This document shows, one piece after another, positions 2,964-41,459 of a DNA stretch of 56,356 bases. Both the position numbers and the translations under genes were made by a program. The DNA is taken from NCBI GenBank assembly GCA_028704635.1, contig JAQWFB010000003.1, forward strand, positions 1 through 56,356. The letters run 5' to 3'. Below the pieces are notes generated by a model. It was not told the DNA's origin and did not search any database. It saw nothing but the letters and a program-made list of their open reading frames with translations. Each line of letters begins with the position of its first letter. Position 1 is the first letter of the stretch. This DNA comes from Candidatus Shapirobacteria bacterium (GTDB lineage: Bacteria; Patescibacteriota; Microgenomatia; UBA12405).

Positions 2964-2976
2964 AACTTAGAGTATA
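2964..2976 (-). promoter_or_regulatory. -10 box TATACT 7 nt upstream of the TyrRS start codon (leaderless-type promoter)
   Basis: Minus strand: TATACTctaagttATGGAG. Confidence 0.5.
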
Positions 2977-2996
2977 AATTATTTTTTCAAATTTTA

Positions 2997-3473: not shown

Positions 3474-3497
3474 CTATTTATTAAAAAACATTAAAAA

Positions 3498-4157: not shown

Positions 4158-4173
4158 TAATTCTATTTTACTC

Positions 4174-7100
4174 TTACAGTCCAGTTGTATCTAAAGTCGC
4201 TCCCACTCCTGTCGGCGTTGGCATTGGTGTTGGTGTTGTTCCTCCAATATCCATTTTCAACAAAATCTGATCCAATTGCGATTTAGTAATACAGGTTTCA
4301 TTGTTTTCTTCACCCACACACAAGTTTTTAGTTTGAGTTTTATCAGTCACGATTTTTGGGGTAATTATCTCCACTCCCGCCACCAATCGATCAGTTATTA
4401 TTTCCGATAAATCGGTTAAAACTAAATTATCTTTCTGCCACATCAATTCATCCAAAATTTGCTTTGCAAAATCCGCTGCATTTTCATCTACTCCTGGTAA
4501 TAAATCCGCTATTTTAGTTCCATTCCCCACACCATTTTTAATAAACACTAAAACGTGTCCTGTTCCTTCTCCATCAAAATCACTCATCGCCGTTCCAATA
4601 ATCGCCCCTGCTTTAGTCGCTTTCATTGCCACGCCCGGTGTCGAAGAGGAGGTCAGGGGATCACCTGCTTTTATCGGTCCATTTTCTGTATTTACTTTTA
4701 CTGGCACTCGCCCCGACAACGCCACTGGCACCGCCGAAGTTTCATTATCATCAACACTCCCAATCGTAATTGCTGGCGTTGAAGAAACCACTCCCACTAA
4801 ACCTTTCTCGTAACTCCCTGTACTTTTTTTAACCCCCGATTTTAAATTGGAATCTAAACTAACCACATCACCCGCCCCAATTGTTTTATCTGTAGCTGAA
4901 TACACCTCCGCCAAATCAGCGTTACTGTTGCTAACCTCAATTAAGGTAACAGTCGCGGATGTTTTATAAACTGTGTCTGCCATAACCGAAGTACTATCTG
5001 TACATAATGTATAGTAAACCGTACTAGTAGTTGCTGGATCATCCAAAAAAGTATTAGTTGCAGTAAGACTAACGGCATCACTACTATATCTACCGAAAAA
5101 AGAATCAACTTGGCCTGTATGGGCATTATCACAAACAGGTGTCGCCCCAATACCTCTTCTAATTGTTCCAACTGGAGTATCATTGCCAGTACCAGCCGCA
5201 CTTAGTCCCACACTAATCATAACTAAAATTTTATTAGAAGCAGACGATAAAGTAATATTTGGTCGAGTTGCCCCGATAAAGATTGTAGTTGTATTATTGT
5301 CTGCAAAAGTGGTCACATTAGTATCCACAAAAGATCTTGTTTTTTGAATTTCTGAGGTCACACAATCCTTCCAAATACTATTTTCGTAGCAACGGAATTT
5401 ATTAGTTGAAGAATTGTAATAAGTTGCTCCATTAGTTCCGGTTGGATCCGTTGTTCCATTATCCAACACTAATAAATCTGGCGCTGTTGTTCCACTATTT
5501 CCAATAATCACTTTTCCACTGGAATTAACTCCACCCACTGTAAAAGCAATATTTCCACTTCCAGATTGAATCGTTGTTGCCGAGGTCGTATTTGTCGATC
5601 CAATAAACATGGTAATCGCTGCCGCCCCTGTACCAATGTTAATTGTCTTTGCTGTTGCTCCGGATCCAATATTAATTCCACCTGTTCCCGCCCACAGATT
5701 TAAACTCGATGTCCCCGAAGTAGTTCCAATTGAAATCACATTATTTGCTGCTCCTGTTCCAATATTTATATTTTTATTTGCCGTTCCAGTTCCAATATTT
5801 ATACCTCCAGTTCCCGAAATCAGGTTCAAAGCAGCCGCTCCAGTTGTCGTCCCAATTGAAATCGTTTTTGCATTTGCATCTGTTCCAATATTTATTGTTC
5901 CTGTTCCAGACTGCATTGTAATCGATGAATTAGCTGTTGTACTCCCAAAAGTTAATCCACCAGCACTGGTTGTATCCAAAATAATATTTCCTTGTGCTGA
6001 GACTTTTAATGGTGCCGCTGTTGATCCTGCTAAGGTTGAAATTCCTACCAAATATTGTGACCCAGCTCCGTTTGTTGATGCCACATTTTCTCCAAAAGTG
6101 AAAGCTGTCTTAGATGCTGAAGTCATATTCCAATTCCAAACCTGTTGGTTATCACCATTATTTATTGTATTTGTTCCATCCGCCGCCGTAATCGAATTTA
6201 AGCTCGATGCCCCGCCACTCGCGTCTGATTGGCAAGCCCAGCCACCAGCATCCGTATATTTTAAAATTTGCCCATCATTACAACCCTTAAGCAGAGTTAA
6301 GCCAGATGCTGATACTTCCAAGCCAGAATTTGAAGCAGTTGACCCTACTGTTCCCGAAGTAGTTAAATTAACTGCAACAGTCGCTGTTCCTCCTAGAGAT
6401 ACTGTTCCACCACCACTCATACCAACTCCAGTGGAAATCGTAATTGAACTATTAACCAAATTTGCATTTGATATTGATCCAGTTGGTAAATTCACCGTTC
6501 CTGATACTCCTATTCCACCATTAAATGTTTGTAAACCAGTCCAAACATTACTATTACCTAAGTTAAGTGCAATTGTATATGGGCCAGCGCCAGACCGAGT
6601 TAAGCTCGAATCAGTCACATTGTTAACATAAGGAAGAGAACCTGTTTGTCCCACACTAATAAAATTACCAGTTTGTCCAATTCCCACAAATCCACTCGAA
6701 CTAATTCCATTCAAATAATTAGAATTGAGATTAGTCACTAAATCACTCGACCCAATCCCTATTCCACCATTAAATGTTTGAAGTCCTAACCAAACATTGG
6801 AAGAACCTAAATTAAGGGAAAAAACATTACTTGAAGACAAAGTTAAACCAACTCCAGCTGTATAACTTGACCCAACATCAACACTACAAATAAAAGCTGA
6901 ACCATTCCACTGTAATTTATCAGTCCCAGTACAAGTAGGGGAAGATACTCCAATCGAACGAGATGTTCCTGATCCACTAATAATTATTCCATTCCCATTA
7001 GTAAGCGTGGTAATAAAATTTCCTGTTTGTCCAATTCCTATAAATCCAGCCGAACTAATTCCATTTAAATAATTAGAATTGAGATTATTCACTAAAGCAC

Positions 7101-8769
7101 TCGACCCAATTCCAATCCCACCATTAAAAGTTTGTAAACCTATCCAAACATTAGATGAACCTAAGTCTAAATTCAAAGTCGCTGTTCCTCCTAGAGATAC
7201 TGTTCCACCACCACTCATACCAACTCCAGTGGAAATCGTAATTGAACTATTAACCAAATTTGCATTTGATATTGATCCAGTTGGTAAATTCACCGTTCCT
7301 GATACTCCTATTCCACCATTAAATGTTTGTAAACCAGTCCAAACATTACTATTACCTAAGTTAAGTGCAATTGTATATGGGCCAGCGCCAGACCGAGTTA
7401 AGCTCGAATCAGTCACATTGTTAACATAAGGAAGAGAACCTGTTTGTCCCACACTAATAAAATTACCAGTTTGTCCAATTCCCACAAATCCACTCGAACT
7501 AATTCCATTCAAATAATTAGAATTGAGATTAGTCACTAAATCACTCGACCCAATCCCTATTCCACCATTAAATGTTTGAAGTCCTAACCAAACATTGGAA
7601 GAACCTAAATTCAAATTCAAAATTGTAGTTCCACCTAAAGCCACTAAACCACCACCACTTAAACCAACACCAGCCGCCACTGTCAAACTAGAATTAGTTA
7701 ATGATGAATTGCCAATATCCATAATCGTATTCGAGTTTCCCGAAATAGTTTTACTAGTTAAAGTTTGCCCTACATCAGTCATTACCACTTTATTTCCAAT
7801 CCTAATTCGAGCCACTCCACCTGTTTGATCAGTAATAATAAATTCATCAGACGAATTTGAAGCCGGTCCAAATTCTATTGCCGAAGCTGGATTAACTGAA
7901 GGGGAGCCATCAGTTTCCCTTATTGTTAATGTTCCTGATGATGGAGTATTAATTGTAAATGTTGACCCTGAAACCGTAATAGTAGTTCCACCACTTCCAT
8001 TTAGCTTTATCACCCCACCCAATGATACTGAGCCACTACTTGAATCACCCGATAATCCAATTGCACTATTAACCAAATTTGAATTGGATATTGATCCGGT
8101 TGGTAAATTAACTGTTCCCGACACCCCTATTCCACCATTAAACGTTTGTAAACCTGTCCAAATATTAGATGAGCCCAAGTCTAAAGCCAGAACAGTCGTT
8201 CCACCTAATGAAACTGTTCCACCTCCAGACATTCCCACTCCAGTATTAAAAGTAACCGAACTGTTGGCTAAATTTGAATTAGTAATTCCAGCCGTTCCCG
8301 ATAAATTACTATTTGTTAATCCCGAAATTGCTGTTGTTGTTACATTAGTCACTCTTCCTTGAGCATCAGTGGTTATTATTGGAATATTTAAAGCACTACC
8401 ATAAGTCCCAGAAGTTCCAATACCAGATAAAGCTAAACTTATACTTCCTCCCAAATTAACCAAACCACCTCCAATCAATCCATTTCCCGCCGTTATTGTT
8501 AAACCGGAATTTACCAAAGAGGAATTACTAATATTTAAAATAGTATTTTCACTTCCAGAAATTGTTTGATTAGTTAAAGTTGTTCCTATCGATGCCACCA
8601 TTGGTGCCGTCACTGTACAATCCGGATTTGTCGGTAAACAACTTGGATTTAATGTTTCTCCCGGAGAATATAATGCTGTCGCCTTAACTTCCTTAGTAAA
8701 AACCAAAGACAATAATAGAACCAAAAAAAATAAGGGGTATCTGTTCAATCTCCCCAGCTTCAATAGCAT
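4174..8769 (-). CDS. Giant repetitive secreted surface protein (tail-fibre/adhesin-like beta repeats)
   Basis: 1531 aa, signal peptide, recurring NVWTGLQTFNGGIGVSGTVNLPTGSISN and INIGTG repeats. Confidence 0.8.
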   Translation of the reverse strand: MLLKLGRLNRYPLFFLVLLLSLVFTKEVKATALYSPGETLNPSCLPTNPDCTVTAPMVASIGTTLTNQTISGSENTILNISNSSLVNSGLTITAGNGLIGGGLVNLGGSISLALSGIGTSGTYGSALNIPIITTDAQGRVTNVTTTAISGLTNSNLSGTAGITNSNLANSSVTFNTGVGMSGGGTVSLGGTTVLALDLGSSNIWTGLQTFNGGIGVSGTVNLPTGSISNSNLVNSAIGLSGDSSSGSVSLGGVIKLNGSGGTTITVSGSTFTINTPSSGTLTIRETDGSPSVNPASAIEFGPASNSSDEFIITDQTGGVARIRIGNKVVMTDVGQTLTSKTISGNSNTIMDIGNSSLTNSSLTVAAGVGLSGGGLVALGGTTILNLNLGSSNVWLGLQTFNGGIGIGSSDLVTNLNSNYLNGISSSGFVGIGQTGNFISVGQTGSLPYVNNVTDSSLTRSGAGPYTIALNLGNSNVWTGLQTFNGGIGVSGTVNLPTGSISNANLVNSSITISTGVGMSGGGTVSLGGTATLNLDLGSSNVWIGLQTFNGGIGIGSSALVNNLNSNYLNGISSAGFIGIGQTGNFITTLTNGNGIIISGSGTSRSIGVSSPTCTGTDKLQWNGSAFICSVDVGSSYTAGVGLTLSSSNVFSLNLGSSNVWLGLQTFNGGIGIGSSDLVTNLNSNYLNGISSSGFVGIGQTGNFISVGQTGSLPYVNNVTDSSLTRSGAGPYTIALNLGNSNVWTGLQTFNGGIGVSGTVNLPTGSISNANLVNSSITISTGVGMSGGGTVSLGGTATVAVNLTTSGTVGSTASNSGLEVSASGLTLLKGCNDGQILKYTDAGGWACQSDASGGASSLNSITAADGTNTINNGDNQQVWNWNMTSASKTAFTFGENVASTNGAGSQYLVGISTLAGSTAAPLKVSAQGNIILDTTSAGGLTFGSTTANSSITMQSGTGTINIGTDANAKTISIGTTTGAAALNLISGTGGINIGTGTANKNINIGTGAANNVISIGTTSGTSSLNLWAGTGGINIGSGATAKTINIGTGAAAITMFIGSTNTTSATTIQSGSGNIAFTVGGVNSSGKVIIGNSGTTAPDLLVLDNGTTDPTGTNGATYYNSSTNKFRCYENSIWKDCVTSEIQKTRSFVDTNVTTFADNNTTTIFIGATRPNITLSSASNKILVMISVGLSAAGTGNDTPVGTIRRGIGATPVCDNAHTGQVDSFFGRYSSDAVSLTATNTFLDDPATTSTVYYTLCTDSTSVMADTVYKTSATVTLIEVSNSNADLAEVYSATDKTIGAGDVVSLDSNLKSGVKKSTGSYEKGLVGVVSSTPAITIGSVDDNETSAVPVALSGRVPVKVNTENGPIKAGDPLTSSSTPGVAMKATKAGAIIGTAMSDFDGEGTGHVLVFIKNGVGNGTKIADLLPGVDENAADFAKQILDELMWQKDNLVLTDLSEIITDRLVAGVEIITPKIVTDKTQTKNLCVGEENNETCITKSQLDQILLKMDIGGTTPTPMPTPTGVGATLDTTGL
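6380..6812. repeat. Long direct repeat copy A inside the giant surface gene (offset 798 bp from copy B)
   Basis: About 430 bp appears identical to 7178..7610. Confidence 0.85.
7178..7610. repeat. Long direct repeat copy B inside the giant surface gene
   Basis: See 6380..6812; 798 = 3 x 266, frame preserved. Confidence 0.85.
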
Positions 8770-8804: not shown

Positions 8805-9305
8805 TTATTTTTTCTTTTTAGACACAATGATATCTACAATTGCCAAGATCGCCACCAAACTAATTACTCCCAACAAAATAAAAAAATATGTTTTTAATTC
8901 CTCATCTTTTCCCGCCACCACATGAAAACTAGTCAATACTTCTTCAGTTAAATTTTCATAATCACTTATTCTTACGTTTAAATTATAAAATCCAGTTTCA
9001 GAACTTTCTGGAATCACAATAAAATCCAAAAATTGAGCCTGTGTTTCTACTGCTTTTAAAACTTGTGATTGAGCGATTATTTCATCACCTTTAGTTACCT
9101 CATAATTTAGCCGCAAATCTTTTCTTTGTGGGTTTTCTGGATATTTAATATCTATTTGAAAATAAAGCCGATCGCCAGATTGAATCTCTGTATACTTTTC
9201 TGAAATATTTGTTGACACACTTAAAGCCCTGGCATATGGCGCATTAATAAGCATTTCTACATAAATAAAAACAACACAAATTACTTTAATTATCTTAACC
9301 ATCAT
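8805..9305 (-). CDS. Secreted Ig-like protein with C-terminal TM anchor (family member 1)
   Basis: SEKYTEIQSGDRLYFQIDIKYPENPQRKDLRLNYEVTKGDEII; paralogous to 12877..13392 and 40935..41459. Confidence 0.7.
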   Translation of the reverse strand: MMVKIIKVICVVFIYVEMLINAPYARALSVSTNISEKYTEIQSGDRLYFQIDIKYPENPQRKDLRLNYEVTKGDEIIAQSQVLKAVETQAQFLDFIVIPESSETGFYNLNVRISDYENLTEEVLTSFHVVAGKDEELKTYFFILLGVISLVAILAIVDIIVSKKKK

Positions 9306-9762
9306 GACGAATATTAATTAAAAAACTTAAAATTAAAAGATAAAGAAGTATATTGTAAAAAGCAAATAAAACCAAATTTATATAATAAATCGTAATCATA
9401 AATGGCACAAATAAAGATAAAAGATTTAAATTAAAAAAAATAACAAAGCATATAAAAAAAGCATAAAGTAATAATATATTAGTCTTTTCTCTATTAATAT
9501 AAAAAAACATTCCCGGAATCACCGCTAACAAAAAATTAATACAAGAAACCCAATTAATAATATTTAACGAAAAATATAATATATAGACATCGAGGGAAAT
9601 TCTTATTAAAACTACCAGATAAATAAAAAATATAAAAACTATTTGTTTTTTATCAGCTTTCTTAAATAATTCCACCGTTAACAAACCCATCATCACAATT
9701 ACCAAAAGGACACAAACAAATAAGACACTTAACTCCATGTTTTGAGTAAAATTAAACGTCAT
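9295..9762 (-). CDS. Small multi-TM membrane protein (155 aa, module component)
   Basis: Overlaps neighbouring genes; positional equivalent of 13385..13870. Confidence 0.6.
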   Translation of the reverse strand: MTFNFTQNMELSVLFVCVLLVIVMMGLLTVELFKKADKKQIVFIFFIYLVVLIRISLDVYILYFSLNIINWVSCINFLLAVIPGMFFYINREKTNILLLYAFFICFVIFFNLNLLSLFVPFMITIYYINLVLFAFYNILLYLLILSFLINIRHDG

Positions 9763-10015
9763 TTTTTATTAAAATGATTAAAATCCACAAAGCAGATATT
9801 GTTAAAAGTGATTCAGGTATAAACCAAGCTTTTTGGTCGTTAATGCCATAAAAATTTAAAGCCACATTTATGCAATAAGATAGACTTATTACAAAAAAAG
9901 GCAAAAAAATTACCATTTTTTTCGAACAAATAATATTCAGAGAGGCGATCCACATTAATATAATTGCTGCCATCAACACCATAGCTATCGTTAAAAAATT
10001 TAAAAATATCGTCAT
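9752..10015 (-). CDS. Small TM protein (87 aa, module component)
   Basis: SKKMVIFLPFFVISLSYCINVALNFY resembles EKKVIIPFVPFFMIGLAYCFTSVFSFY in 13857..14123. Confidence 0.6.
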   Translation of the reverse strand: MTIFLNFLTIAMVLMAAIILMWIASLNIICSKKMVIFLPFFVISLSYCINVALNFYGINDQKAWFIPESLLTISALWILIILIKNDV

Positions 10016-11853
10016 AATTTCATTTCCTTTTTAAATCCATAAAAAATTAAAAACAAACCCACAAATCCCACCATTCCCACCGGTAACCAAAAATAAAGCG
10101 GAAGAGTTTCGAAATTATTATTGTATTCTTCAAAAAAAATTTGGATTAACTTATCAAGTATAACCAGAACCGATCCCCATGGAATTAATTTTTTCGCAAT
10201 ATCATTTTTTAATTTAAACGTATAAAAAAATAAATTAATTAAAATCATTATTATTACTAAATCGGGAATATCATTATAAAATGCCGCTTTTTTCCAACCT
10301 TGGAAAAATGAAGTTATAAAAAGGAAATAACCAATTGTAAAAATTAAAGAAAATAAAACAGCATATCTAATTTTTAGCTTTATAAAAAAATTCTCAATTT
10401 TTGATATTTTTTTTATTTTTTCTTTTTCCATTAATTCTATTTCTTTTCTAATGGTCATTAAAAAACCAATCAAAGAAAATAATAAAAAAATTATTATTGA
10501 TGCAAATAATTCCTTATTAAAAGATATATCCAAAACTTCACTCTCTTTAATTTCCGTTATCAAACACCAAGGCAATCCAGTGATTAAAGAATTTGTAGCA
10601 ATAGTTCTTTCATTATTATAATTAATTAAAATATTTGTTGTTGGGTTTTTTATTCCAGAAAAACAATTACGGATATTGTCTGTATCAATAGTTTGAACAA
10701 ACATATCAAAAGAACTATTCCTCAGCGGGCTAATCAGTAGTTTTTGATCACGACTTACTAAATAACTCTCTCCAGTTTCACCTAAATTTTCTTTATCTCC
10801 AGTTATTCCAAAAATAACATTCATATTTTTAATTAAAGCCACATATCCTAGTAATTTATTTTGGTCATATATTGGCAATAATACTAAAAATTCTGGATAA
10901 ACTTCACTATAATAATCAATATAAGCATCAGAAAATAAAATTTCTTTATTATTTTTTTCTTCAATAAATTTTTTTGTTAAATACCAATCTTGATTAACTG
11001 GCCAATTAAGATTTGAACCAACCTTTTCTTTAATTGTATTTGTATATACAACATAACCATCAGGATTTATTAAAAATAAATTATTAAAATCTTTCTTATT
11101 AACATTTTCTTCAAAAAACTTTAAATTCAAATCAGCCACTTCTTTGATCATTTTATAATTATCAATAGCAGCCGCTACTACCACTGTTAAATCAACTCCA
11201 TCACCAGTTTTTGTTTCTATGTGGGTTATTCGTAAATATTTTCTTATTATTTTTTTATTTTTTTGACTAAAATCATAAAAACCATAAATATTTTGATTAT
11301 TTTTTATACCCTCAACAATCAATTTATAAAGTTCTGGAGAATTATATATATCCTCATATGTTCTTCCAAAAAATGTGGTTTTTTCATTAAAAAGGGCCAC
11401 TTGTTGTTGGTAATTTTCAATCGAAATATAACCATCTAAACCAATTATTTTACTTTTAATTTTTTGAAAAACAGGATCGTCTTTAAATTCATCAAATTTT
11501 TTATTTGGATTTCTATTAATATAATTTTCTATTTCTTTAATAATAATTCTCGATTCTTCATCAACATTAACTTTCACTATTTCTTCATTGGAAACCAATG
11601 GCTGATTTAATAAATATTTTGCCTCATCCGAATTCGCAATTTTTTTAGCCTCACTTTCCACCATTGAAAAATACGAATCAATTTTATTTTTCTTTAAATC
11701 AGAAACTTCAACTAATTGTTGATGTGTATTTTTTACAATGTTATTTTTTACAAAAGTACAACTTACTAGCCAAAAAAGACCACCCATCAAAACACCAAAA
11801 AAACAAAAAAATATTTTAATTTTTACTTGATTTGAAATTATAATTTTATTCAT
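10012..11853 (-). CDS. Membrane protein with large Cache-like extracellular sensor region and C-terminal multi-TM domain; no output domain recognised
   Basis: ORF to 11931, but MNKIIISNQ at ~11853 fits the upstream stop better; ends IFFEEY..GFKKEMKL. Confidence 0.65.
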   Translation of the reverse strand: MNKIIISNQVKIKIFFCFFGVLMGGLFWLVSCTFVKNNIVKNTHQQLVEVSDLKKNKIDSYFSMVESEAKKIANSDEAKYLLNQPLVSNEEIVKVNVDEESRIIIKEIENYINRNPNKKFDEFKDDPVFQKIKSKIIGLDGYISIENYQQQVALFNEKTTFFGRTYEDIYNSPELYKLIVEGIKNNQNIYGFYDFSQKNKKIIRKYLRITHIETKTGDGVDLTVVVAAAIDNYKMIKEVADLNLKFFEENVNKKDFNNLFLINPDGYVVYTNTIKEKVGSNLNWPVNQDWYLTKKFIEEKNNKEILFSDAYIDYYSEVYPEFLVLLPIYDQNKLLGYVALIKNMNVIFGITGDKENLGETGESYLVSRDQKLLISPLRNSSFDMFVQTIDTDNIRNCFSGIKNPTTNILINYNNERTIATNSLITGLPWCLITEIKESEVLDISFNKELFASIIIFLLFSLIGFLMTIRKEIELMEKEKIKKISKIENFFIKLKIRYAVLFSLIFTIGYFLFITSFFQGWKKAAFYNDIPDLVIIMILINLFFYTFKLKNDIAKKLIPWGSVLVILDKLIQIFFEEYNNNFETLPLYFWLPVGMVGFVGLFLIFYGFKKEMKL

Positions 11854-11855
11854 TT

Positions 11856-12887
11856 TTAAAAGATTTTTTTTTCCATTAAAAGTAATATAAAAACAAATCC
11901 TTGAATTAGCATCTGTATAAAAATTGCCCACAAATAATCTTTTTTTTGTTGGGTAAAATCTTTTAAACCATCACTCTTATTAGTCACTGTAATTAATAAC
12001 CATTGATAATCATCTTTAAGATTTTCATTAACCGTTTTTAACCCTTCATATATTTCGAAATTACTTATTGTTGGGTTAATACAACGATAAGTAAAAAATT
12101 GCTCATCAGTTTCTTGGCGTCTCTCATTGCATTTATTAATTAAATCTTTAGAAATCATCGGGTAATCAACAAAAAAATTATTATTTTCATTTTCAGACAA
12201 ATAACCAAATTCTTTATTTTTATCAGGGTTAGCCAAATAAAAACCATTTTTATCAATTAAATAAGTTACTTCTCCTTCCCTTTGCGATCTTCTAATACTA
12301 TCTAAAAAATAATTAGCATAAACTTTAGTCAAAATTATACCTTTCAACTCATTTGTCTTCTGGTCAAAAATTGGAGTTGCATATTTCAATATCGGAATTT
12401 TATTTTCCAAGGTTAAAGGAAAAATATAAACCTCTCCTTTTTTCAAATTTTTTAATAAATCAAAATAAGAACTATCTTGTTGTTTATTATTGGAACCAGA
12501 AATAATTTGACGTTCCTTTCCATCAAACTCAGCTGTTAATAAAACTTTTTTATTACTTACCAGATAACTTATTTGATAATAGGCTTCACTTTGGGTTAAA
12601 AATTCCAAAAAATCTTTTTCAAGATTATTTATTTCAGCCGAACCCGTACTTATTTTTTGGAATTCAGATAATTTACTTAAAAATAATAGATTATCAGCCG
12701 CTCCAGAGGGAAAGTTGTTGACCTCATAATAAGTAGTGTTTAATCTTTGATCAATTATATCCAAAGCATCAGCTTTTATTTTTATATTTTGTTGTTTAGA
12801 TTGTTGATAAAAAAATATTGCGTTAAAAACCACCGATGTTATTAGTAAAATAAAAATCAAAAATAATAACGACTTTTTATTTTTCAT
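11856..12887 (-). CDS. Membrane protein with Cache-like extracellular sensor domain, two TMs, no output domain
   Basis: TM-extracellular-TM; YATPIFDQKTNELKGIILTKVYANYFLDSI..YLIDKNGFYLANPD. Confidence 0.65.
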   Translation of the reverse strand: MKNKKSLLFLIFILLITSVVFNAIFFYQQSKQQNIKIKADALDIIDQRLNTTYYEVNNFPSGAADNLLFLSKLSEFQKISTGSAEINNLEKDFLEFLTQSEAYYQISYLVSNKKVLLTAEFDGKERQIISGSNNKQQDSSYFDLLKNLKKGEVYIFPLTLENKIPILKYATPIFDQKTNELKGIILTKVYANYFLDSIRRSQREGEVTYLIDKNGFYLANPDKNKEFGYLSENENNNFFVDYPMISKDLINKCNERRQETDEQFFTYRCINPTISNFEIYEGLKTVNENLKDDYQWLLITVTNKSDGLKDFTQQKKDYLWAIFIQMLIQGFVFILLLMEKKIF

Positions 12888-13392
12888 TTTTTTTCCTCAT
12901 TCTAGAAATCATCCAAAATTCAATAATCACCAAAACATCAACTATTCCTATTGCCACCCCTAAAATATAAATATATTTCATTAAATCCGCCTTGCCTTTA
13001 ACCACTCTAAAATTAGCCGAAACTTCTTCATTTAAATTTTGATAATCTTGAACCTTATTGGCAATTGTATAAGTTCCTACTTCCAAGGATTCCGGTATTG
13101 TCATGTAATCCATAAATGAAGATTGAGTTTCAATCGCTTTAAGAACCTTACTTTCACTAATAATTTCATCGCCTTTTTTAATTTGATAAGTTAATCGCAA
13201 ATCTTTTCGACTTGGGTTTTCTGGATATTTCACCTCCAATTCAAAAGTCAGCCGATCACCCGCCGTTACTTCTAAATATTTTTCTGGGATATGAATAACT
13301 AAATTTAATGCTAAAACAGATTTGCTTATTACAAATACCGCTACTATTAATCCAAAAATCCATATTAATCCAAATATAATTTTATTATTCAT
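12877..13392 (-). CDS. Secreted Ig-like protein with C-terminal TM anchor (family member 2)
   Basis: PEKYLEVTAGDRLTFELEVKYPENPSRKDLRLTYQIKKGDEII. Confidence 0.7.
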   Translation of the reverse strand: MNNKIIFGLIWIFGLIVAVFVISKSVLALNLVIHIPEKYLEVTAGDRLTFELEVKYPENPSRKDLRLTYQIKKGDEIISESKVLKAIETQSSFMDYMTIPESLEVGTYTIANKVQDYQNLNEEVSANFRVVKGKADLMKYIYILGVAIGIVDVLVIIEFWMISRMRKKNEK

Positions 13393-13870
13393 ATTCAGGT
13401 TCGTTTTGAAATTTAATCAACACTGTTAAGGTTAAAAAATGTAAATCAATTACTGTTAATAAAGATAAAAACCCTGCTAATAACATCAATAAATTATTTC
13501 CAGTAATAACTTGAATAATAAAAACTATAAAATTTACAATTATCAATCCTATGGCTATTGAAATTGCCATTAATCTAACAAATTGTCGAAAAACTGAAAA
13601 TAATCGAACATAAAGCCAAATTACTAATATATTTATAGTGGCAAAAATAGAGACATCAATCATTCCTGGCCATCTAAAAAGAATAATAAAACCATAAGCT
13701 AATAATGAAATTATTGAAAAAATAGTTAAACTAAAAAACATTGATAATAGTATTTTTAATTCCTTATATTTAAATTGAAACGATAATAATATTCCAAATA
13801 AAGTAGTTAAAATAATTCCACTTCCTAAAAATAAAGATATTATTACAGCATCCAAATTAGTCAGAAACAT
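13385..13870 (-). CDS. Small multi-TM membrane protein (161 aa, module component)
   Basis: Overlaps neighbours; positional equivalent of 9295..9762. Confidence 0.6.
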   Translation of the reverse strand: MFLTNLDAVIISLFLGSGIILTTLFGILLSFQFKYKELKILLSMFFSLTIFSIISLLAYGFIILFRWPGMIDVSIFATINILVIWLYVRLFSVFRQFVRLMAISIAIGLIIVNFIVFIIQVITGNNLLMLLAGFLSLLTVIDLHFLTLTVLIKFQNEPEYE

Positions 13871-14123
13871 ATTTTTTTATAGTGAACACAAATAACCCAA
13901 AGCTGATTAATAAAAATAAATTTTTAAAAAACCAAAAAATATTAGTCAAAAGAAAATAAAAAGAAAATACTGAAGTAAAACAATAAGCCAGTCCAATCAT
14001 AAAAAAGGGGACAAAGGGGATTATCACTTTCTTTTCCACCATCGCTTGTGACGATAACCAAATCAACCATACTGCCAGCATTAAATCCAAAAAACTTCCT
14101 AAATTTAATAATAAATCACTCAT
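13857..14123 (-). CDS. Small TM protein (88 aa, module component)
   Basis: Paralogous to 9752..10015. Confidence 0.6.
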   Translation of the reverse strand: MSDLLLNLGSFLDLMLAVWLIWLSSQAMVEKKVIIPFVPFFMIGLAYCFTSVFSFYFLLTNIFWFFKNLFLLISFGLFVFTIKKYVSD

Positions 14124-15181
14124 AATTTTAAATTTTTCTTAAAACTAAAAAATAAAGATAAAAATCCTGTAATACTTAAAATCCGCATTAAAACTAAGAT
14201 TAAATTTCTCCAAACACTTGGTAAAGCATATGCTTGTCTGTATTCTTCAAAAAATATAGTTAATAAAAAATAAATCCCCAAAAACAACGCTCCAATTTTA
14301 AAATCATTTCCCTTTTTAAGAGGTATCATCACAATTAATAGGAAAAAAGAAAGTGTCGCCATTCCCCATTCCAAAAAATATGTTTCTAATGAAAAATAAT
14401 TAACTCCTCTGGTCGCCAAAGTTACAATGAAACAATAAGAAATTCCAGCTGCACCGCAAAGAATAAATAGTAACATTTCTTCTATGCTAAAAGATGAAGA
14501 AAAACTAGAAAAATATCCGCTTAAAAAAGTAATTGCTAAAACAAAAAGCATTCCCCAAAAAATATATCGTTTAAGGATTTGTTGTGCTGGTATATCAATA
14601 TTTGTTACCTTTTCTGTTTCTGAGAATAAACATAAGGGCAAACTATCCGAAACCTTTTGATATGTCCCATAAACAGATCTATTTCCTTCATCGATTCCAG
14701 TATAAAATTTTCGACTAAAATTATTCTCATTAAGACATTGATCAAGAAGTTCATTTCGAATAATTTTAGTTGTTGTTCGTTCACTACTGATATCAAATTC
14801 TTTTTGGGCTGTTAATAAAGCCCCTTTATCATTTACCAAATAAGCATTAAGACGAAGTGTTTTTTGTTGCTCCACATATAATAATTTTCTTAAATCATCC
14901 ATGGAAATCGCTTGTCCTTCGCTTGTTATATCAATAGTACTAACTGTTTCTTCATTTTCCACAAATGCTAACGGTTCATTTTTATTAGCTAAAAATTGAG
15001 AAACAGAATTTTCTTTTTCATTAGAAAAATTTGTCAAAGTTTTTTCAACTTGATCAAGTAATTTAGCGTAATCTTGGGTAAAAAAAAATTGAATACTTAT
15101 CACCGCAATCACCAATGCTACTGCAAAAGAAGTTATTGTAAAAAATTGTGATTCACTTATTTTTTGAAATGTTTTTTTCAT
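14120..15181 (-). CDS. Membrane protein with extracellular sensor-like region and C-terminal multi-TM domain
   Basis: ORF to 15217, MKKTFQK at ~15181 preferred; ends IFFEEYRQAYALPS..FFSFKKNLKL like 10012..11853. Confidence 0.6.
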   Translation of the reverse strand: MKKTFQKISESQFFTITSFAVALVIAVISIQFFFTQDYAKLLDQVEKTLTNFSNEKENSVSQFLANKNEPLAFVENEETVSTIDITSEGQAISMDDLRKLLYVEQQKTLRLNAYLVNDKGALLTAQKEFDISSERTTTKIIRNELLDQCLNENNFSRKFYTGIDEGNRSVYGTYQKVSDSLPLCLFSETEKVTNIDIPAQQILKRYIFWGMLFVLAITFLSGYFSSFSSSFSIEEMLLFILCGAAGISYCFIVTLATRGVNYFSLETYFLEWGMATLSFFLLIVMIPLKKGNDFKIGALFLGIYFLLTIFFEEYRQAYALPSVWRNLILVLMRILSITGFLSLFFSFKKNLKL

Positions 15182-18132
15182 TTCTTTTTCCTTTTTCCCA
15201 TCAACCCAATAATCCAAGAAATTAAAATTAATACTATTCCAGATCCAATACCAATCATCAATGGTTTGTTTGATAAGAAATTAGTTAATGGAGAAGTAAT
15301 AACAGTTTCACTAATTTCAAATGGTTGTTTAAATTCATCTCTAATATTAGTGTTATAAAGAGTGTTTAATACTAATGTGTATTTACCTTTGTCTAATAAC
15401 AATCCTTCAAATGTTTTATTAAAGACTCCTTCTGTTTGTATTGTTGTATTGTCAACCGATCTATAATATTCTTTTCCATTTGCATCAACTATAGTAAATG
15501 TCATTTCTACTGGGGTATCTTTATTACCAAAACTAACAAATGTTACTCTAGCAGTTAATTCAGATACATTAGTAATTTGTGGCTTATCTACAATTAGGGC
15601 GATATCAAAAAGTTCAGAGGGGATTTGAGAAACAGGCACAAATCCTTCAGCTGGAGTAGTTGTCGTTGTTCTGCCAGTAGTGGCTGTAGTTGTTTCTATT
15701 ACTCTTCCTCTTGGTGTTGCCGATACCTCATTTGACCAATCACCTGGCATACAATCATTAATAGCTTTTATCTTAAAGTAATATCTAGTTCCACCAGATA
15801 ATCCTTTGATTGTATAACTAGTAGTATCGGCATTACCTACATTTGGATTACCATATTCAATTGATCCAGAAGAAGTTCCATAAGCTACCAAATAATGAGT
15901 AAAGGGATTACTTGCTTTTGACCAAGTTAAAGTAATACTATTATCTCCATTTACTGTATTAGTAATAGTTGGTGCACTTCCTGGTTTAGTTGCAGTACAG
16001 GCTGGTGCTGCCCAACCAGTAGAGGTGGTAGAAGTTGAAGTTGACGAAGGGGAGGAGGTTGGTGTTGGTGTAGGTGTTGGAGTAGGAGTAATTACAGCCG
16101 AACTAAAAGTTACAAATTTAGTAAAATGTCTCGTCCAAACTACCAAATCATCACCCACATCAATTTTACATTCTTCATCTACCCCCAATGTCGCACCAGA
16201 ATCACTCCCACATGTCGTTATAATTTCAGTAAAGGATATTCCACTTCTAAGATATCCTACTCTATTTCCCTCTTGATTTGGAAATAAAATTCTTACTGCT
16301 TTATCAAAAGATAACTTAACATCAGTCACTCCAACGTCAATTGCTGTTTCCACAGTTCTTGTTTCACCTGAAACCTCAGGGATAGTCGTTGATATTGCTG
16401 TTGGAGCCAACATCATTCCATCCCAACCAGTATCTGTACTTGATATTGACGTTGAAGCCTGAATAGATATTCCTACACCACTAACATTATTTGCCACAAT
16501 ATTTACCTCTGGTAATGTTCCTGACCCACTGGAAATAAACCCACTAAAATCAATTGTTGGACTGGTTATTCCACTATTTATTGTAATAAAAGCTGGTGTA
16601 GTTGAATTTGTAATTACGGCTAAATATCGATTATTACTGCTGATTGTGGCGGTACCACCCACTTGATTAACCACTAAGTAATTTCTTGAATTTTCAATGT
16701 AATATGGAATAATAGTTGCGTTTCCATAAATTAATGATTTTGCCACCTGATAATTTTTACTTCCCCACCAATTATTTATTGCACTTACTGTATTTGCAGT
16801 ATTATTCCGTAAATTATAACTAGTATTACTAAATATCAAATTTTCAGTTATATCGTATCCACCAATTGAAGTTCCCACATCCAAAAAAATTCCTTTATCC
16901 CATCCGGAAATATTATTTCCTGTTATCGATGTTATCACCGCCCCACCACCCAGATCAAAAATAGCGGATGAATTACTAGTCCCATCACCAGTTAAAGTAT
17001 TTTCCAAAACACTCACTCCAACAGTATGGCTATTTGGAGTAAATCCCTCCAAACTAATACCACCACGAGGAAAACCACTCCCAATTGTATTTAAATATAG
17101 TGTTGAATTGCTAATATTTGCCTGTTCATTATCTAAATAAATTCCTGTTCCATAAGTATGTCCCGAACCAGAAATGTCATTATTTTGAATAGTTATTTCA
17201 GAACTATTTCTATTAGTAATTCCAAAATCACAATTAATAATTGTATTATTTTCAATCACCGCCCCATTCTTAATATTTATTACTTCTATTGCCGAATCCC
17301 AATCTGTTGTGTTGTAGTGTAGGTCGCTAATAACATTATTAGAAATTGCCGTAACTGTTACTCCATCATTTACTTTAATTCCATCTTGTCGCCTTGTCGT
17401 TAAAATTCCATCACCATTAATCACATTATTGTGAATATTTGCCGTTATATTTGTGGTTGTTTCTCCAATTTGAATTCCATTACTCAAAAAATTAGAGGCA
17501 GTACAACCACTAATTTCCACTGTTTTTGCCGAAGTAGTATTAGCATCTACCCAAAAAGCATGTATCCCTTTTTTCCATGTTTCCGAACCACTCGGTATTA
17601 CTACATGATCATTATGTATACTACTAACATTCTCAATTACTCCGCTAGTGTTATAAAAAAAGACTCCTCCAAAACGCATATCGGGTATTGTTGAACCAAA
17701 CCAATCCGCTCTGTCAGTCGACAAGGAAGACGCATCTACCTTTAAATTTTCCACTGTCACCGTGTCACCTATATCATTAACCACAATTATTCCTGTTGTT
17801 GTTCCAGATGGTGTTGTTACATATACATCTAATGATGTTGGTTTAATAATTGTCGTCCCTCCAGTTCCATTTAATACTATCGATTTAGTAATATTGACTT
17901 GCTCCGTATATTCGCCTGCTGCCACATTAACAGTGTCGCCATCAACAACTCTAGTATCACCTATTGCATACTGAATAGTTTGAAAAGCATCTGTTCCACT
18001 TGCAGTTCCATGAGATCCATCATCAGTTCCTGTTGAGTCAACATAATAATCAGTTGCCAATATTTGGATTGGCTTTATTAATAAAACCAATCCAAATAAA
18101 CCTATTACAATATATTTCCTAATCACATACAC
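15178..18132 (-). CDS. Secreted right-handed beta-helix surface protein with FN3 domain, PT-rich linker and C-terminal TM anchor
   Basis: VDSTGTDDGSHGTASGTDAFQTIQYAI, NosD/PbH1-like N..I repeats, FN3, C-terminal TM + KRKKK. Confidence 0.8.
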   Translation of the reverse strand: MYVIRKYIVIGLFGLVLLIKPIQILATDYYVDSTGTDDGSHGTASGTDAFQTIQYAIGDTRVVDGDTVNVAAGEYTEQVNITKSIVLNGTGGTTIIKPTSLDVYVTTPSGTTTGIIVVNDIGDTVTVENLKVDASSLSTDRADWFGSTIPDMRFGGVFFYNTSGVIENVSSIHNDHVVIPSGSETWKKGIHAFWVDANTTSAKTVEISGCTASNFLSNGIQIGETTTNITANIHNNVINGDGILTTRRQDGIKVNDGVTVTAISNNVISDLHYNTTDWDSAIEVINIKNGAVIENNTIINCDFGITNRNSSEITIQNNDISGSGHTYGTGIYLDNEQANISNSTLYLNTIGSGFPRGGISLEGFTPNSHTVGVSVLENTLTGDGTSNSSAIFDLGGGAVITSITGNNISGWDKGIFLDVGTSIGGYDITENLIFSNTSYNLRNNTANTVSAINNWWGSKNYQVAKSLIYGNATIIPYYIENSRNYLVVNQVGGTATISSNNRYLAVITNSTTPAFITINSGITSPTIDFSGFISSGSGTLPEVNIVANNVSGVGISIQASTSISSTDTGWDGMMLAPTAISTTIPEVSGETRTVETAIDVGVTDVKLSFDKAVRILFPNQEGNRVGYLRSGISFTEIITTCGSDSGATLGVDEECKIDVGDDLVVWTRHFTKFVTFSSAVITPTPTPTPTPTSSPSSTSTSTTSTGWAAPACTATKPGSAPTITNTVNGDNSITLTWSKASNPFTHYLVAYGTSSGSIEYGNPNVGNADTTSYTIKGLSGGTRYYFKIKAINDCMPGDWSNEVSATPRGRVIETTTATTGRTTTTTPAEGFVPVSQIPSELFDIALIVDKPQITNVSELTARVTFVSFGNKDTPVEMTFTIVDANGKEYYRSVDNTTIQTEGVFNKTFEGLLLDKGKYTLVLNTLYNTNIRDEFKQPFEISETVITSPLTNFLSNKPLMIGIGSGIVLILISWIIGLMGKRKKK
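15694..16021. repeat. 328-bp near-identical segment shared, inverted, with 39171..39498 (FN3 domain)
   Basis: GWAAPACTATKPGSAPTITNTVNGDNSITLTWSKASNPFTHYLVAYG; few nucleotide differences by eye. Confidence 0.85.
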
Positions 18133-21398: not shown

Positions 21399-21405
21399 AT
21401 ACTAA

Positions 21406-21519
21406 TTATACTTGCCACGGAGCCATAGAAGAAGTTATTGCGGTAACTAAAAACATACCCAAAATAGAAGCATTTCTTGCCTTTTTATCAGTCAAAACTT
21501 TTTTCATTAATTCTTTCAT
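21406..21519 (-). CDS. Unannotated 37-aa peptide MKELMKKVLTDKKARNASILGMFLVTAITSSMAPWQV
   Basis: ATG with upstream AAAAAAGGAGAAAAAA; sits 7 nt before the kinase start; basic N-terminus and hydrophobic C-terminus. Confidence 0.55.
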   Translation of the reverse strand: MKELMKKVLTDKKARNASILGMFLVTAITSSMAPWQV

Positions 21520-21582
21520 TTTTTCTCCTTTTTTAATTAATAATTTAATAGTAACTTAATATTAAATTAATCAGTAATTAAT

Positions 21583-36432: not shown

Positions 36433-39400
36433 ATGAATAGAAAGATATTTTTATTTATATATGTTTTTTTAGTATTGCCTTTGTCATTTTTATTCCTTTT
36501 TAAAAAAACATATGCAGCTATTAGTTGGACCGATGATTTTAATAGTGGAAATAAAAATACTTGGATAAATATAGATGGAGGAGATAATAGTACTCATCTT
36601 TTTCAGAATAATAAATATGAATTACATACTGAAAGTAACAATGGTTCGGCTAAATCATTAGCAAGTTATGTTAATCAAACTAACGATAATTCAATTGTTC
36701 AAACCAGAGTACAGAAAATAAATTCTGGTGATAATTTTTTAACTTATCTTCTCTTAAGGATTAACCCCACCACCATGAGTGGTTATACCTGTGGCGTTAG
36801 TTCTGATGGAACCAACCATTTTTGGTTCGGTAAACTAACCAATGGAGTCTATTCCAATTTAACCACTACTGGAACAGCAACATATAATTCGAACGATTTT
36901 AAATTTCGTTGTGCTGCTATTGGCAGTAGTCTTGTAGCCAAAGTTTGGAATGCTTCAGATTCAGAGCCTTCCAGTTGGCAGATCAGTTCCACTGATAATA
37001 GCTACACAAGTGGATCAAATGGTGTGATGTTGGCTACTTATCCCATACTTGGCTGGAATACTGTTCAAGTAGCTGTTGATGATTTTTCCACACAAGGATT
37101 ATCCAAATCTGAAGTTTGGGTAGACGACAATTGGGTTGGAACTTCAGCCAATACTGAAGTTGAGTCGGGAAAAATTTTTGGATATAACGCTTTTGCCACA
37201 ATTCAATCCGGTGTCAGTGCGGTTGATGTTGAAGGAACCGTTAATGTAGCAGCAGGAGAATATAACGAAAATTTAACCATCACTAAGGCTGTTAATATTA
37301 TTGGAGCCAATAAAGATACAACTATCATTAAAGGAGTAAGCGGTAAAACCAGAGTTCTTTCTGTCAATGATGTTAGCACCACTATGAGCGTTCGTGGTTT
37401 TACCATAAATGCAGCCAATTGTGACTCTCCTAAACGAGGAATGCAATCAGTCTTGTCGAGTAATGTCACTTTCGAAGGAAATAAAATAATAAATATCGGC
37501 GATATGGGTATTTGGACCAGATCGGGTAATATTATTAAAAATAATAATATAAATTGTGATATTGGAACTAGTTTTGGAGGGATTTATATAGACGGTGCAG
37601 GCAATACTATCTCAGATAACACTATTAATAGTGTTACCACAAATAGTGGTATATCAATAAATGGTTCAAATAATTTTATCAAAAGTAATAACATTCAATG
37701 CTCAATTGAAGATTCTTTTGCTGGTTGTATATACATCAGCGGTATAGACAACATTTTAGATAGTAACACAATTACTGGATTTACTGGTTCTGCTTATGCT
37801 ATTTTTTCATATGGTGGAACAGCACCTGTTAATCAAAATAATACTTTTAAAAGAAACACTTTTATTGCTAATAACGCCGATGGTAGTGGTGGTGGAATTT
37901 ATTTATACAACTCGGGTGGTAATATTATTGGCGGTACCTTGCCCGAGGATGGTAATAGCTTCATTTTAAAACCAGATTCAAAAAAATCACCTTCGTATGG
38001 CTATGGCATAGACATTATTTCTTACCCTGATGGATACACAGCCAGTAACACTATTCAAAATAATAAATTTGATGGTGGTAATCGAGTTTTAGAGGTAGAA
38101 GGTTTTGTTGGTGGAACAACAACTTTTTCCAACAATATTGTTGGAGCCACCACTCCACCAAGCAATTATGGTGTTATCTTTAGTGGGGGAAGCGCCATTA
38201 TTTCCGGCAATACTTTTCACAATATCTCTACTCCAATTTTTTTTAGTAGATCTGGTGGTGTAGCAGAAATGAATATTTCTATTACTAATAATATTTTTGA
38301 TGATGGAGCTGATACTTATGCCGCAATTTTAGCTTCAAATTTTACTTCACTTGTGGTTAATGAAAATAGTTTTGATTTAAAGAGTAATAGAATAGCATTA
38401 AACAATCAAGGTGGAAACGTTGATGCTACTAATAATTGGTGGGGAAGTGCCTCTTTAAAAAAAATTAAATCTAAAATTCTAGGTAACGTTATTTTTACCC
38501 CTTATTATGTTAATTCTAAAAAAACATCATTAGTTGCTAGTATTATTCATGGAGCGGCCACCATTAATAATAATAAACCGCAAGTTTTAATTAACGATTC
38601 TACTTTGCCGGTAACTATTACTGTTGAAAGTGGAACAACTAACCCCACTTTAGATGTCAGTTCTTTAATTACTAATAATTCTGGAACATTACCTCAAATC
38701 ACTATAAATACAAATTCGGCTAATATTTCCATCCCTGAATCAACTACTATTACCAGTGACGACGAAAATTGGGATGGAATAATTAAAGCACCAACTGTTA
38801 CTACTATTACTCTCCCTGAAACTTCTGGTGAAACAAAAACCTTAGGTATGGCAATTGAAGTTGGACTTGGTGATACTAAATTAACTTTTGATAAAGCAGT
38901 AAAAATAGATTTTCCCGGTGAGGTAGGTAAAAGAGTGGGTTTTTCAAGAAATGATGTTTTTACTGAAATTACAACAATATGCAGTAGTGATTCTGGTGCG
39001 ACTTTAGGGGTAGATGAAGAATGTAAAATTGATGTGGGTAACGATTTAGTGGTATGGACGAGACATTTTACAAAATTTATTGTTTTCAGTTCTGTTTCAA
39101 CCTCAACTCCAACTCCAACACCTACTCCAACACCTACTTCCTCCTCTAGTACTTCAACCTCTACAACCTCTACTGGTTGGGCAGCACCAGCCTGTACTGC
39201 AACTAAACCAGGAAGTGCACCAACTATTACTAATACAGTAAATGGAGATAATAGTATTACTTTAACTTGGTCAAAAGCAAGTAATCCATTTACTCATTAT
39301 TTAGTAGCTTATGGAACTTCTTCTGGATCAATTGAATATGGTAATCCAAACGTAGGAAATGCTGATACCACTAGTTATACAATCAGAGGATTATCTGGTG

Positions 39401-39987
39401 GAACTAGATATTACTTTAAGATAAAAGCTATTAATGACTGTATGCCAGGTGATTGGTCAAATGAGGTATCGGCAACACCAAGAGGAAGAGTAATAGAAGC
39501 TATGACTACTACTAGTGGTGAAACAACAACTACACCGGCTGAGGGATTTGTACCGACATCAGAAATCCCTGGAAATTTATTTGATATTAAATTGACTATC
39601 GATAGTGCAATTTTAAATAAATCAAATGAGTTAGTTTCAAGAGTATCCTTTACTAATTTTGGTAGTTTGCCAACATTGGCTAAGCTTGTTTATAAAATTT
39701 TAGACGAAAATGGAAAAATTATTTTTACTGAAAATGGAGAAGTAACCGTTGAAACAGAAAATACATTAGTTAAAGAATTTAAAAATTTTGAGGCAGGAAA
39801 CGGAAAATATACTCTAATTTTGGAGACTATTTATGGAGATAATGTAAAAGATGAATTTAGACAGAGTTTTGAAATTAAAGAAGTGGTGAGCACACAAAAC
39901 AGATGGATAGTTTTGGTTTTGGGGATATTTGTTGGAATAATTGGAATTGTAATCTATAAATTATCTAAGGCTCGCAAACATAAATAA
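36433..39987 (+). CDS. Secreted beta-helix surface protein with FN3 domain and C-terminal TM (paralogue of 15178..18132)
   Basis: NosD/PbH1-like repeats, PTPTPTPT linker, shared FN3 segment. Confidence 0.82.
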   Translation: MNRKIFLFIYVFLVLPLSFLFLFKKTYAAISWTDDFNSGNKNTWINIDGGDNSTHLFQNNKYELHTESNNGSAKSLASYVNQTNDNSIVQTRVQKINSGDNFLTYLLLRINPTTMSGYTCGVSSDGTNHFWFGKLTNGVYSNLTTTGTATYNSNDFKFRCAAIGSSLVAKVWNASDSEPSSWQISSTDNSYTSGSNGVMLATYPILGWNTVQVAVDDFSTQGLSKSEVWVDDNWVGTSANTEVESGKIFGYNAFATIQSGVSAVDVEGTVNVAAGEYNENLTITKAVNIIGANKDTTIIKGVSGKTRVLSVNDVSTTMSVRGFTINAANCDSPKRGMQSVLSSNVTFEGNKIINIGDMGIWTRSGNIIKNNNINCDIGTSFGGIYIDGAGNTISDNTINSVTTNSGISINGSNNFIKSNNIQCSIEDSFAGCIYISGIDNILDSNTITGFTGSAYAIFSYGGTAPVNQNNTFKRNTFIANNADGSGGGIYLYNSGGNIIGGTLPEDGNSFILKPDSKKSPSYGYGIDIISYPDGYTASNTIQNNKFDGGNRVLEVEGFVGGTTTFSNNIVGATTPPSNYGVIFSGGSAIISGNTFHNISTPIFFSRSGGVAEMNISITNNIFDDGADTYAAILASNFTSLVVNENSFDLKSNRIALNNQGGNVDATNNWWGSASLKKIKSKILGNVIFTPYYVNSKKTSLVASIIHGAATINNNKPQVLINDSTLPVTITVESGTTNPTLDVSSLITNNSGTLPQITINTNSANISIPESTTITSDDENWDGIIKAPTVTTITLPETSGETKTLGMAIEVGLGDTKLTFDKAVKIDFPGEVGKRVGFSRNDVFTEITTICSSDSGATLGVDEECKIDVGNDLVVWTRHFTKFIVFSSVSTSTPTPTPTPTPTSSSSTSTSTTSTGWAAPACTATKPGSAPTITNTVNGDNSITLTWSKASNPFTHYLVAYGTSSGSIEYGNPNVGNADTTSYTIRGLSGGTRYYFKIKAINDCMPGDWSNEVSATPRGRVIEAMTTTSGETTTTPAEGFVPTSEIPGNLFDIKLTIDSAILNKSNELVSRVSFTNFGSLPTLAKLVYKILDENGKIIFTENGEVTVETENTLVKEFKNFEAGNGKYTLILETIYGDNVKDEFRQSFEIKEVVSTQNRWIVLVLGIFVGIIGIVIYKLSKARKHK
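39171..39498. repeat. 328-bp near-identical segment shared with 15694..16021
   Basis: See 15694..16021. Confidence 0.85.
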
Positions 39988-39988
39988 A

Positions 39989-40927
39989 GTGAAAAAAGTT
40001 TCTATTAGAAATATTTTTGGACTATTGGCAGGCGTGATTTTTATTTTACTAGTTGTTGAGGGAATTTATTTAGTTCAAGTTGGGATGTTGGTTGATGCTC
40101 GGCATAAAAGTTTGCAAATTACTGCAGATAATAAAGCACTGTTGATTGATACTTATTTAAATGAGGAAAAGCAAAAAATAATCTACATATCATCATTAAA
40201 AGAGTTTAAAAATGTTGCCTTGAATCCTAATAATAAACAAACGATAGCAATAGCAAAAAAGAAAATTGATGAATTAAATAGTTTCTTTCCAGGAATCTGT
40301 ATTACAGATAATAAGGGAATTGTAATTGTGGCAAAAAATGATTTGCCAGGAATGAATTATGGAAACCAGAAATATTATTCTCTTGAAAATAAAAAGATTG
40401 TTTTTGAACCTTATTATGACACTATTAGAAAAAATAATTATTTGGCAGTTGTAAGCCCTATTTACAATAATGATGTGATAAAAGATAAAATAATTGGCAC
40501 AATTGTTTTTGATTTGGATTTTGAAACAATAACAGGATTAATGAAAGTATCAATTGATAATAACAGTGAAGAGGCGTATTTAATTGATGAATCGGGTTTG
40601 TTTTTAAGTGGTTCAAAATATATTGGTGGTGGAAATAAAGATGGAATTTTAATTCAAGAAGCTAAAAGTGATGGAGCAAAAGCATGTTTGGATGATTTGA
40701 AAAAATATCAAAAAAGTAATGGTGATATTGAGGACCATGAAGAAAAAATAATTCCATATTTAAATTATATTGGTGAAGATGTTTTTGGAACTCATACTTA
40801 TCTTAAGACCATGACTGGTTGTGTTATAGCGGAAGAAAAGGTAGCTGAAGTAGCTAAATTTCCTTCTGTAAAAGACATTATTGATATTTTTAAAAATGTA
40901 TTTTATTTATTACTGAATAATAAATAA
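39989..40927 (+). CDS. Cache-like extracellular sensor domain membrane protein, no output domain
   Basis: ICITDNKGIVIVAKNDLPGMNYGNQKYYSL; VVSPIYNNDVIKDKIIGTIVFDLDFETI. Confidence 0.65.
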   Translation: MKKVSIRNIFGLLAGVIFILLVVEGIYLVQVGMLVDARHKSLQITADNKALLIDTYLNEEKQKIIYISSLKEFKNVALNPNNKQTIAIAKKKIDELNSFFPGICITDNKGIVIVAKNDLPGMNYGNQKYYSLENKKIVFEPYYDTIRKNNYLAVVSPIYNNDVIKDKIIGTIVFDLDFETITGLMKVSIDNNSEEAYLIDESGLFLSGSKYIGGGNKDGILIQEAKSDGAKACLDDLKKYQKSNGDIEDHEEKIIPYLNYIGEDVFGTHTYLKTMTGCVIAEEKVAEVAKFPSVKDIIDIFKNVFYLLLNNK

Positions 40928-40934: not shown

Positions 40935-41459
40935 ATGAGGAAGATATATTTAGTGACATTTATTTTAATGTTTTTGGTAGTGTTTCCTAAATCAGTGATG
41001 GCTATGAACATTACTATCGGGGTGTCAGATAAATATTCAGAGGTAAATGCAGGTGAAAAAATATATTTTGAAACTGAAATTAAATGGCCAGAAAATGTTG
41101 ATAGAAAAGACTTAAAGATGGAATATTTTATTACAGATAATAATGGAAAAGAAATAGCTTATCTTAAAGTGTTAAAGGCAGTTACAACACAAGCGATTTT
41201 TTCGGATTCAATATTAATTCCAGAAGGTACTCCAAAAGGAATGTATAAAATTAGTCTAAAAATTAATGACTATAAAGAACTTAATCAAGATGCGGTGGTT
41301 AGTTTTAATGTGATAAAAACTGTTAATAAAAATACTTTAATTCTTTATATTATTGTTGGACAGTTTATTTTGACTTTATTTTATGTTGTGTTTGAATTAC
41401 CATTTTTAATTAAGAGACTTAAATCATTTATTAATTTATCTTTGAATACAAAGAAATAA
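40935..41459 (+). CDS. Secreted Ig-like protein with C-terminal TM anchor (family member 3)
   Basis: SDKYSEVNAGEKIYFETEIKWPENVDRKDLKMEYFITDNNGKEI. Confidence 0.7.
   Translation: MRKIYLVTFILMFLVVFPKSVMAMNITIGVSDKYSEVNAGEKIYFETEIKWPENVDRKDLKMEYFITDNNGKEIAYLKVLKAVTTQAIFSDSILIPEGTPKGMYKISLKINDYKELNQDAVVSFNVIKTVNKNTLILYIIVGQFILTLFYVVFELPFLIKRLKSFINLSLNTKK

Follow-up and report, generated by a model that had tools for sequence, protein, structure and literature searches.

A candidate split surface receptor of Cache-type sensors, small membrane proteins and Ig-like proteins in a Shapirobacterium and in DPANN archaea

Several described systems resemble parts of the locus considered here. Cache receptors, including histidine kinases and the chemoreceptors PctA, Mlp24 and KinD, carry an extracellular double-Cache fold flanked by transmembrane (TM) helices, and 7TMR-DISM receptors combine an extracellular sensor with multiple TM helices. 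The archaeal HAMP receptor Af1503 has no output domain, and the eukaryotic TRAP complex has a topology of Ig/TM subunits plus a 4TM subunit. In archaeal two-component/iKaiC networks, DUF835 is fused to REC (PMC5847659).

The stretch of DNA analyzed here (the window, 56,356 nucleotides) is the start of contig 3 of a Candidatus Shapirobacteria genome of ~1.0 Mb in 16 contigs, whose size, gene content and relatives point to a CPR (Patescibacteria) bacterium. Ten coupled genes on the minus strand, running from 18132 to 8805, contain two copies (A and B) of one core, in which a 4-helix domain placed after a Cache-type sensor (4TM) is followed by a 3-helix protein (3TM), a 5-helix protein (5TM) and a secreted Ig-like/one-helix protein (Ig), with TM helices counted by hydropathy scan. 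The gene products succeed one another in the order 984 > 353 > 88 > 161 > 171 > 343 > 613 > 87 > 155 > 166 aa (Table 1). An earlier sequence-only reading of this DNA had given the gene order and lengths correctly, and the stop/start overlaps that it reported are real: ATGA occurs at the 984/365, 365/88 and 639/87 junctions, and overlaps of 8-14 nt occur at the 88/161, 161/171, 171/343, 87/155 and 155/166 junctions. The more likely starts of the 365- and 639-aa open reading frames are the ATG codons at 15181 and 11853, which give proteins of 353 and 613 aa, respectively.

Table 1. Coordinates of the operon, the next operon gene and the third set in the window
Feature	Coordinates	Strand	Evidence
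984-aa surface protein of beta-helix + Fn3 type, ending in an Ig-like domain (residues ~840-941) and a TM anchor	15178..18132	-	Pfam fn3 3.8e-13, Beta_helix 5e-6
353-aa membrane protein, module A; short degenerate extracellular sensor region + C-terminal 4-helix domain	14120..15181	-	Weak paralogy to 639-aa; TM prediction
88-aa 3-TM protein, module A, family A9	13857..14123	-	BLASTP 2e-11 to 87-aa; adjoins Ig in DPANN
161-aa 5-TM protein, module A	13385..13870	-	Position and topology only
171-aa secreted Ig-like + C-terminal TM protein, module A, family A7 (also DPANN/CPR)	12877..13392	-	AF2 model, pLDDT 89.8
343-aa Cache-type sensor between two TMs, without output domain	11856..12887	-	PF21623 (histidine-kinase sensor domain) 3e-12, above cutoff
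613-aa protein, module B; two tandem Cache-like extracellular regions + C-terminal 4-helix domain	10012..11853	-	AF2 pLDDT 82.6; Foldseek to chemoreceptor dCache
87-aa 3-TM protein, module B	9752..10015	-	BLASTP to 88-aa; profile searches
155-aa 5-TM protein, module B	9295..9762	-	Profile of non-window members, E=0.005; topology
166-aa secreted Ig-like + TM protein, module B	8805..9305	-	46% identity to 171-aa, 53% to Woesearchaeal protein
1531-aa fibre-like surface protein, next operon gene after 35-nt gap	4174..8769	-	Position; link to module uncertain
1184-aa beta-helix surface protein with same C-terminal Ig-like/TM domain	36433..39987	+	phmmer 1.8e-33 to C-terminus of 984-aa
312-aa dCache_1 sensor, without output domain	39989..40927	+	Pfam dCache_1 7.5e-20, above cutoff
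174-aa Ig-like + TM protein	40935..41459	+	41% identity, E 3e-28

An extracellular Cache or histidine-kinase sensor domain lies between TM helices in three window proteins, the 343-aa (PF21623), 312-aa (dCache_1) and 613-aa (AF2/Foldseek) products. The AF2 model of the 613-aa protein comprises Cache-like regions and C-terminal helices, and its best domain-sized Foldseek matches are the ligand-binding domains of chemoreceptors. The window sensors share with Cache receptors the extracellular double-Cache fold and its flanking TM helices, but they have no kinase, MCP or cyclase domain, they end in a polytopic C-terminus and their partners are encoded by separate small TM genes. That these sensors lack such outputs had been noted from the sequence before, and Pfam and NCBIfam searches agreed: none of the ten proteins encoded by the operon contains a HisKA/HATPase or MCP signalling domain. 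Af1503, likewise a sensor without output, gave a weak sequence match to the N-terminal sensor region (4cq4, E 2.6e-4); however, no HAMP domain was found in the window, whose module comprises multiple genes including Ig and surface proteins. The 7TMR-DISM receptors are similar in joining an extracellular sensor to multiple TM helices and were weakly matched by members of the 4TM (E 0.0015) and 5TM (E 0.066) families, whereas the window helices are split over separate genes without an intracellular output. No 7TMR-DISM_7TM match was above the curated cutoff; the best (E 0.0015) came from one of ten 4TM members, and none was listed for the full-length window proteins.

The modelled Ig protein consists of a helix, eight strands and a second helix, and Foldseek returned generic Ig, CARDB and macroglobulin-like matches only. 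The topology of the TRAP complex is alike, and Ig aligned with one chain of a Sec61-TRAP structure at a Foldseek TM-score of about 0.5, but this match is to a generic Ig fold without a sequence relation and is a lead rather than a sign of membership. No convincing Pfam or NCBIfam curated model was found for the 4TM, 3TM, 5TM and Ig families, nor any description of them in the open-access literature. Cache sensors are well known; part of the interest of the locus lies in these four families that have no matching curated model.

Two window copies of the core had been taken for a tandem duplication. Their paralogy is secure for the Ig pair (171/166 aa; 46% identity, Z=30 versus shuffled sequences) and the 3TM pair (88/87 aa; 33% identity, BLASTP E=2e-11), weak for the C-terminal 4-helix domains of the 365- and 639-aa frames (BLASTP E=0.002, hhalign probability 59%) and undetectable for the 161/155 pair (BLASTP E=3.3, hhalign probability 0.2%). 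The latter two proteins are equivalent by position and 5-helix topology only, and some core members are so weakly similar that unrelated small membrane proteins can be mistaken for equivalents. As a recent event, the duplication had to be rejected, because module B is closer to Woesearchaeal locus L009 than to module A (48% versus 35% for 4TM, 38% versus 33% for 3TM and 53% versus 46% for Ig). The 613-aa protein is 33% identical to its L009 counterpart, and the two operon Ig copies are not joined with starred support in the Ig tree. The possibility that 4TM, 3TM and 5TM are paralogues of one another was rejected as well, 4TM having no profile similarity to 3TM or 5TM.

A third, partial set, which the sequence-only reading overlooked, lies on the plus strand at 36433-41459 in the order beta-helix > Cache > Ig. 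Both beta-helix proteins (984 and 1184 aa) end in a conserved Ig-like domain and a TM helix, a combination likewise overlooked before that recurs in DPANN module loci. Profiles of this C-terminal domain and of the small Ig proteins match each other, and the two are therefore related. The window also encodes a secreted subtilase-type protein of 1419 aa (28469-32728). The 1531-aa surface protein matches no Pfam family; by inspection, it begins with PGETLNPxCxPTxxxC, as does a fibre-like surface protein (497-4630) at locus L015, from another CPR genome that also carries the module.

When GTDB genome contigs were scanned for Ig, the matches came from Woese-, Pace- and Nanoarchaeota, another archaeon, one Moraniibacterium and one Parcubacterium. 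The Ig family was found in 52 of 371 genomes of one DPANN phylum at E<=1e-10 and, under the less strict cut-off of E<=1e-5, in 6 of 380 Patescibacteria, just two of which had strong matches. Neither Ig nor 3TM was found among 57 close relatives, a number that includes the genome of the window itself and seven genomes of the same genus. This Ig distribution indicates horizontal spread. The 3TM family was present in 6 of the 371 DPANN genomes and 1 of the 380 Patescibacteria, and all six DPANN genes lay within 1.6 kb of an Ig gene, a count obtained with a profile built from Ig-adjacent copies. For this reason, the search was repeated with a profile derived solely from the two window 3TM proteins, which gave three strong matches (E<=1e-8), all Ig-adjacent, and two weak matches away from Ig (E 6e-5, with internal stop codons, and E 6e-4). 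Contrary to the refuting case set out with the sequence-only reading, the small TM genes are co-localized elsewhere: 3TM adjoins Ig in a second CPR bacterium as well as in DPANN archaea, mostly with the gene order kept. A viral origin was rejected, as no relative was present in IMG/VR; for Ig, none occurred on plasmids either.

The core recurs in the same order in Woesearchaeota, Nanoarchaeota, Pacearchaeota and one Parcubacterium. The succession 4TM > 3TM > 5TM > Ig, preceded by a sensor or surface protein (Type A), is found twice in the window and in L009, L015, L077, L078 and L082; L012, L013 and L017 have it with a solute-binding protein fused or inserted, and L112 is partial. The 4TM domain is fused to Cache in the window, L009, L012, L013 and L017 and stands alone in L077, L078, L082 and L015. 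In Type B, represented by six DPANN loci (L014, L081, L083, L086, L088 and L090), genes for a histidine kinase (HK), a response regulator (RR) and DUF835 adjoin Ig, mostly in the order HK > RR > DUF835 > Ig, although no RR was seen in L088. The HK architectures were confirmed for L014, L081, L086 and L088, and in two of the six loci the HK itself bears Cache or SBP_bac_3 domains. Archaeal iKaiC networks likewise have HK, RR and DUF835 genes; in the DPANN Ig loci, however, DUF835 is separate, and the available part of PMC5847659 does not mention Ig or small TM partners. Type C loci (the third window set, L010, L011, L016 and L085) contain a surface protein, an output-less sensor and Ig only. 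All three types reshuffle a common set of parts around Ig. The 4/3/5-helix core is missing from most Ig loci and so cannot be a requirement for Ig function.

The sensors beside Ig vary, including Cache, PF04392, SBP_bac_8, SBP_bac_3-type and, by inspection, four-helix domains, and they usually have no output domain. Orthologues of the 343-aa sensor are present at module loci elsewhere, L014 encodes a fusion of a Cache domain with Ig, and a sensor in L085 contains a PAS domain. The surface sensing apparatus proposed by the sequence-only reading is consistent with the Cache folds and with the swapping of Cache, solute-binding and four-helix sensors at the same position. Since output-less sensors of the kinase/chemoreceptor type recur with small TM proteins and, elsewhere, with HK, RR and DUF835 genes, we infer at roughly even odds (about 0.5) that the module forms a multi-subunit surface receptor complex, that it senses and that its sensor subunits are separate from the signal output. 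Exchangeable sensor subunits, here Cache and elsewhere also solute-binding or four-helix proteins, would bind ligands outside the membrane, while the Ig protein and the Ig-like C-terminus of the beta-helix protein would tie the sensors to the surface protein. The 4-, 3- and 5-helix proteins would build the membrane core, and the signal would pass to a cytoplasmic partner encoded elsewhere, e.g., a histidine kinase or a KaiC/DUF835-type protein. The kinase, regulator and KaiC-like genes that adjoin Ig in the six DPANN loci argue for this receptor, whereas the missing output domain in the window operon and the lack of the 4/3/5-helix core at most Ig loci argue against it.

A dedicated output might be sought directly upstream of the operon, where, unremarked in the sequence-only reading, a PhoB-type RR, an HK and a 608-aa gene (18208-22251, with RR and HK at 20015-22251) lie on the same strand with short gaps up to the beta-helix gene. 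However, the RR-HK-608-aa trio recurs in the CPR relatives G048 (same order, 39-49% identity) and G005 (33-35% for HK and the 608-aa gene), neither of which has Ig genes. The window RR and HK belong to a separate conserved unit and were for this reason left out of the module; their being its dedicated output is improbable, and the conservation of the neighbouring unit without the module also counts against the receptor reading. The window HK is ~105 aa shorter than its relatives (384 versus 489-491 aa), and its N-terminus continues in a different frame close to eight consecutive T (~21170-21400), a frameshift that is either real or an assembly error. The 608-aa protein has one half like an SQHop/TED toroid and another with the Asp-rich motifs DDFLDGDGD and NDDAHDWEDD, an arrangement reminiscent of a two-part terpene synthase.

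CPR bacteria and DPANN archaea are mostly episymbionts, and the same parts could form an adhesion or surface-display complex, in which the Ig-like and 4/3/5-helix proteins would anchor the beta-helix and fibre-like proteins and the role of Cache would be limited to adjusting how the cell attaches to its host. In most loci, Ig does adjoin surface proteins that share a homologous C-terminal Ig-like/TM domain, and fibre-like proteins precede the core in L077 and L078. However, these surface proteins already bear their own TM helix, no sortase or similar attachment enzyme was noticed, and sensor-type domains, with kinases and regulators in six loci, recur beside Ig; we consider this explanation unlikely, if worth keeping in mind. 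Less likely still is solute uptake through a split 12-helix permease (4+3+5 helices) fed by solute-binding proteins. It would account for SBP_bac_8, which L012 has as a fusion with the 5TM protein and which also occurs in L013 and L017, and for ABC_sub_bind in L009 and L012, but none of the module loci seen has an ATPase or a known permease family, solute-binding proteins are missing from the window copies and from L078, and Cache domains serve sensing, not transport. The ATPase and permease subunits of an SBP-dependent ABC transporter are absent from the window operon and from the annotated DPANN module proteins.

We propose, tentatively, that the split receptor represents an undescribed class whose ligand-binding, membrane-core and output parts are encoded by separate genes. 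Cache, solute-binding or four-helix subunits would plug into an Ig+4TM+3TM+5TM core that is linked to a surface adhesin and would signal in trans to kinases or KaiC-like proteins, and the module would pass between bacterial and archaeal episymbionts. CPR rows are scattered among archaeal rows in the Ig tree, and the supported branches force at least two changes; the third window Ig groups on a different branch with two DPANN rows and CPR genome G089 (99/94), and the Cache343 tree did not resolve. This placement fits repeated CPR-DPANN exchange, and the much higher frequency of Ig in DPANN favours, without proving, an archaea-to-CPR direction. Membrane-gene transfers between Patescibacteria and DPANN have been described (PMC12455944), and the exchange of a whole membrane module agrees with them. 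Archaea whose genomes are equally tiny have these genes in an unchanged order, but other bacteria rarely have them, a pattern that suggests a shared cell-surface sensing device. As a conserved multi-gene surface module crossing the bacteria-archaea divide between CPR and DPANN alone, it offers concrete genes for testing.

Two further observations concern the Ig proteins. The Parcubacterial L015 copy has an extra ~95-aa tail after its TM helix (10460-10744) with no convincing Pfam match, which may be a cytoplasmic output or adaptor domain. Divergent archaeal Ig proteins adjoin another small multi-TM protein of 104-144 aa (L062, 999-3126; L091, 3048-4139; L092, 7774-8670), and these neighbours may reflect a wider pairing of Ig with small TM proteins in DPANN.
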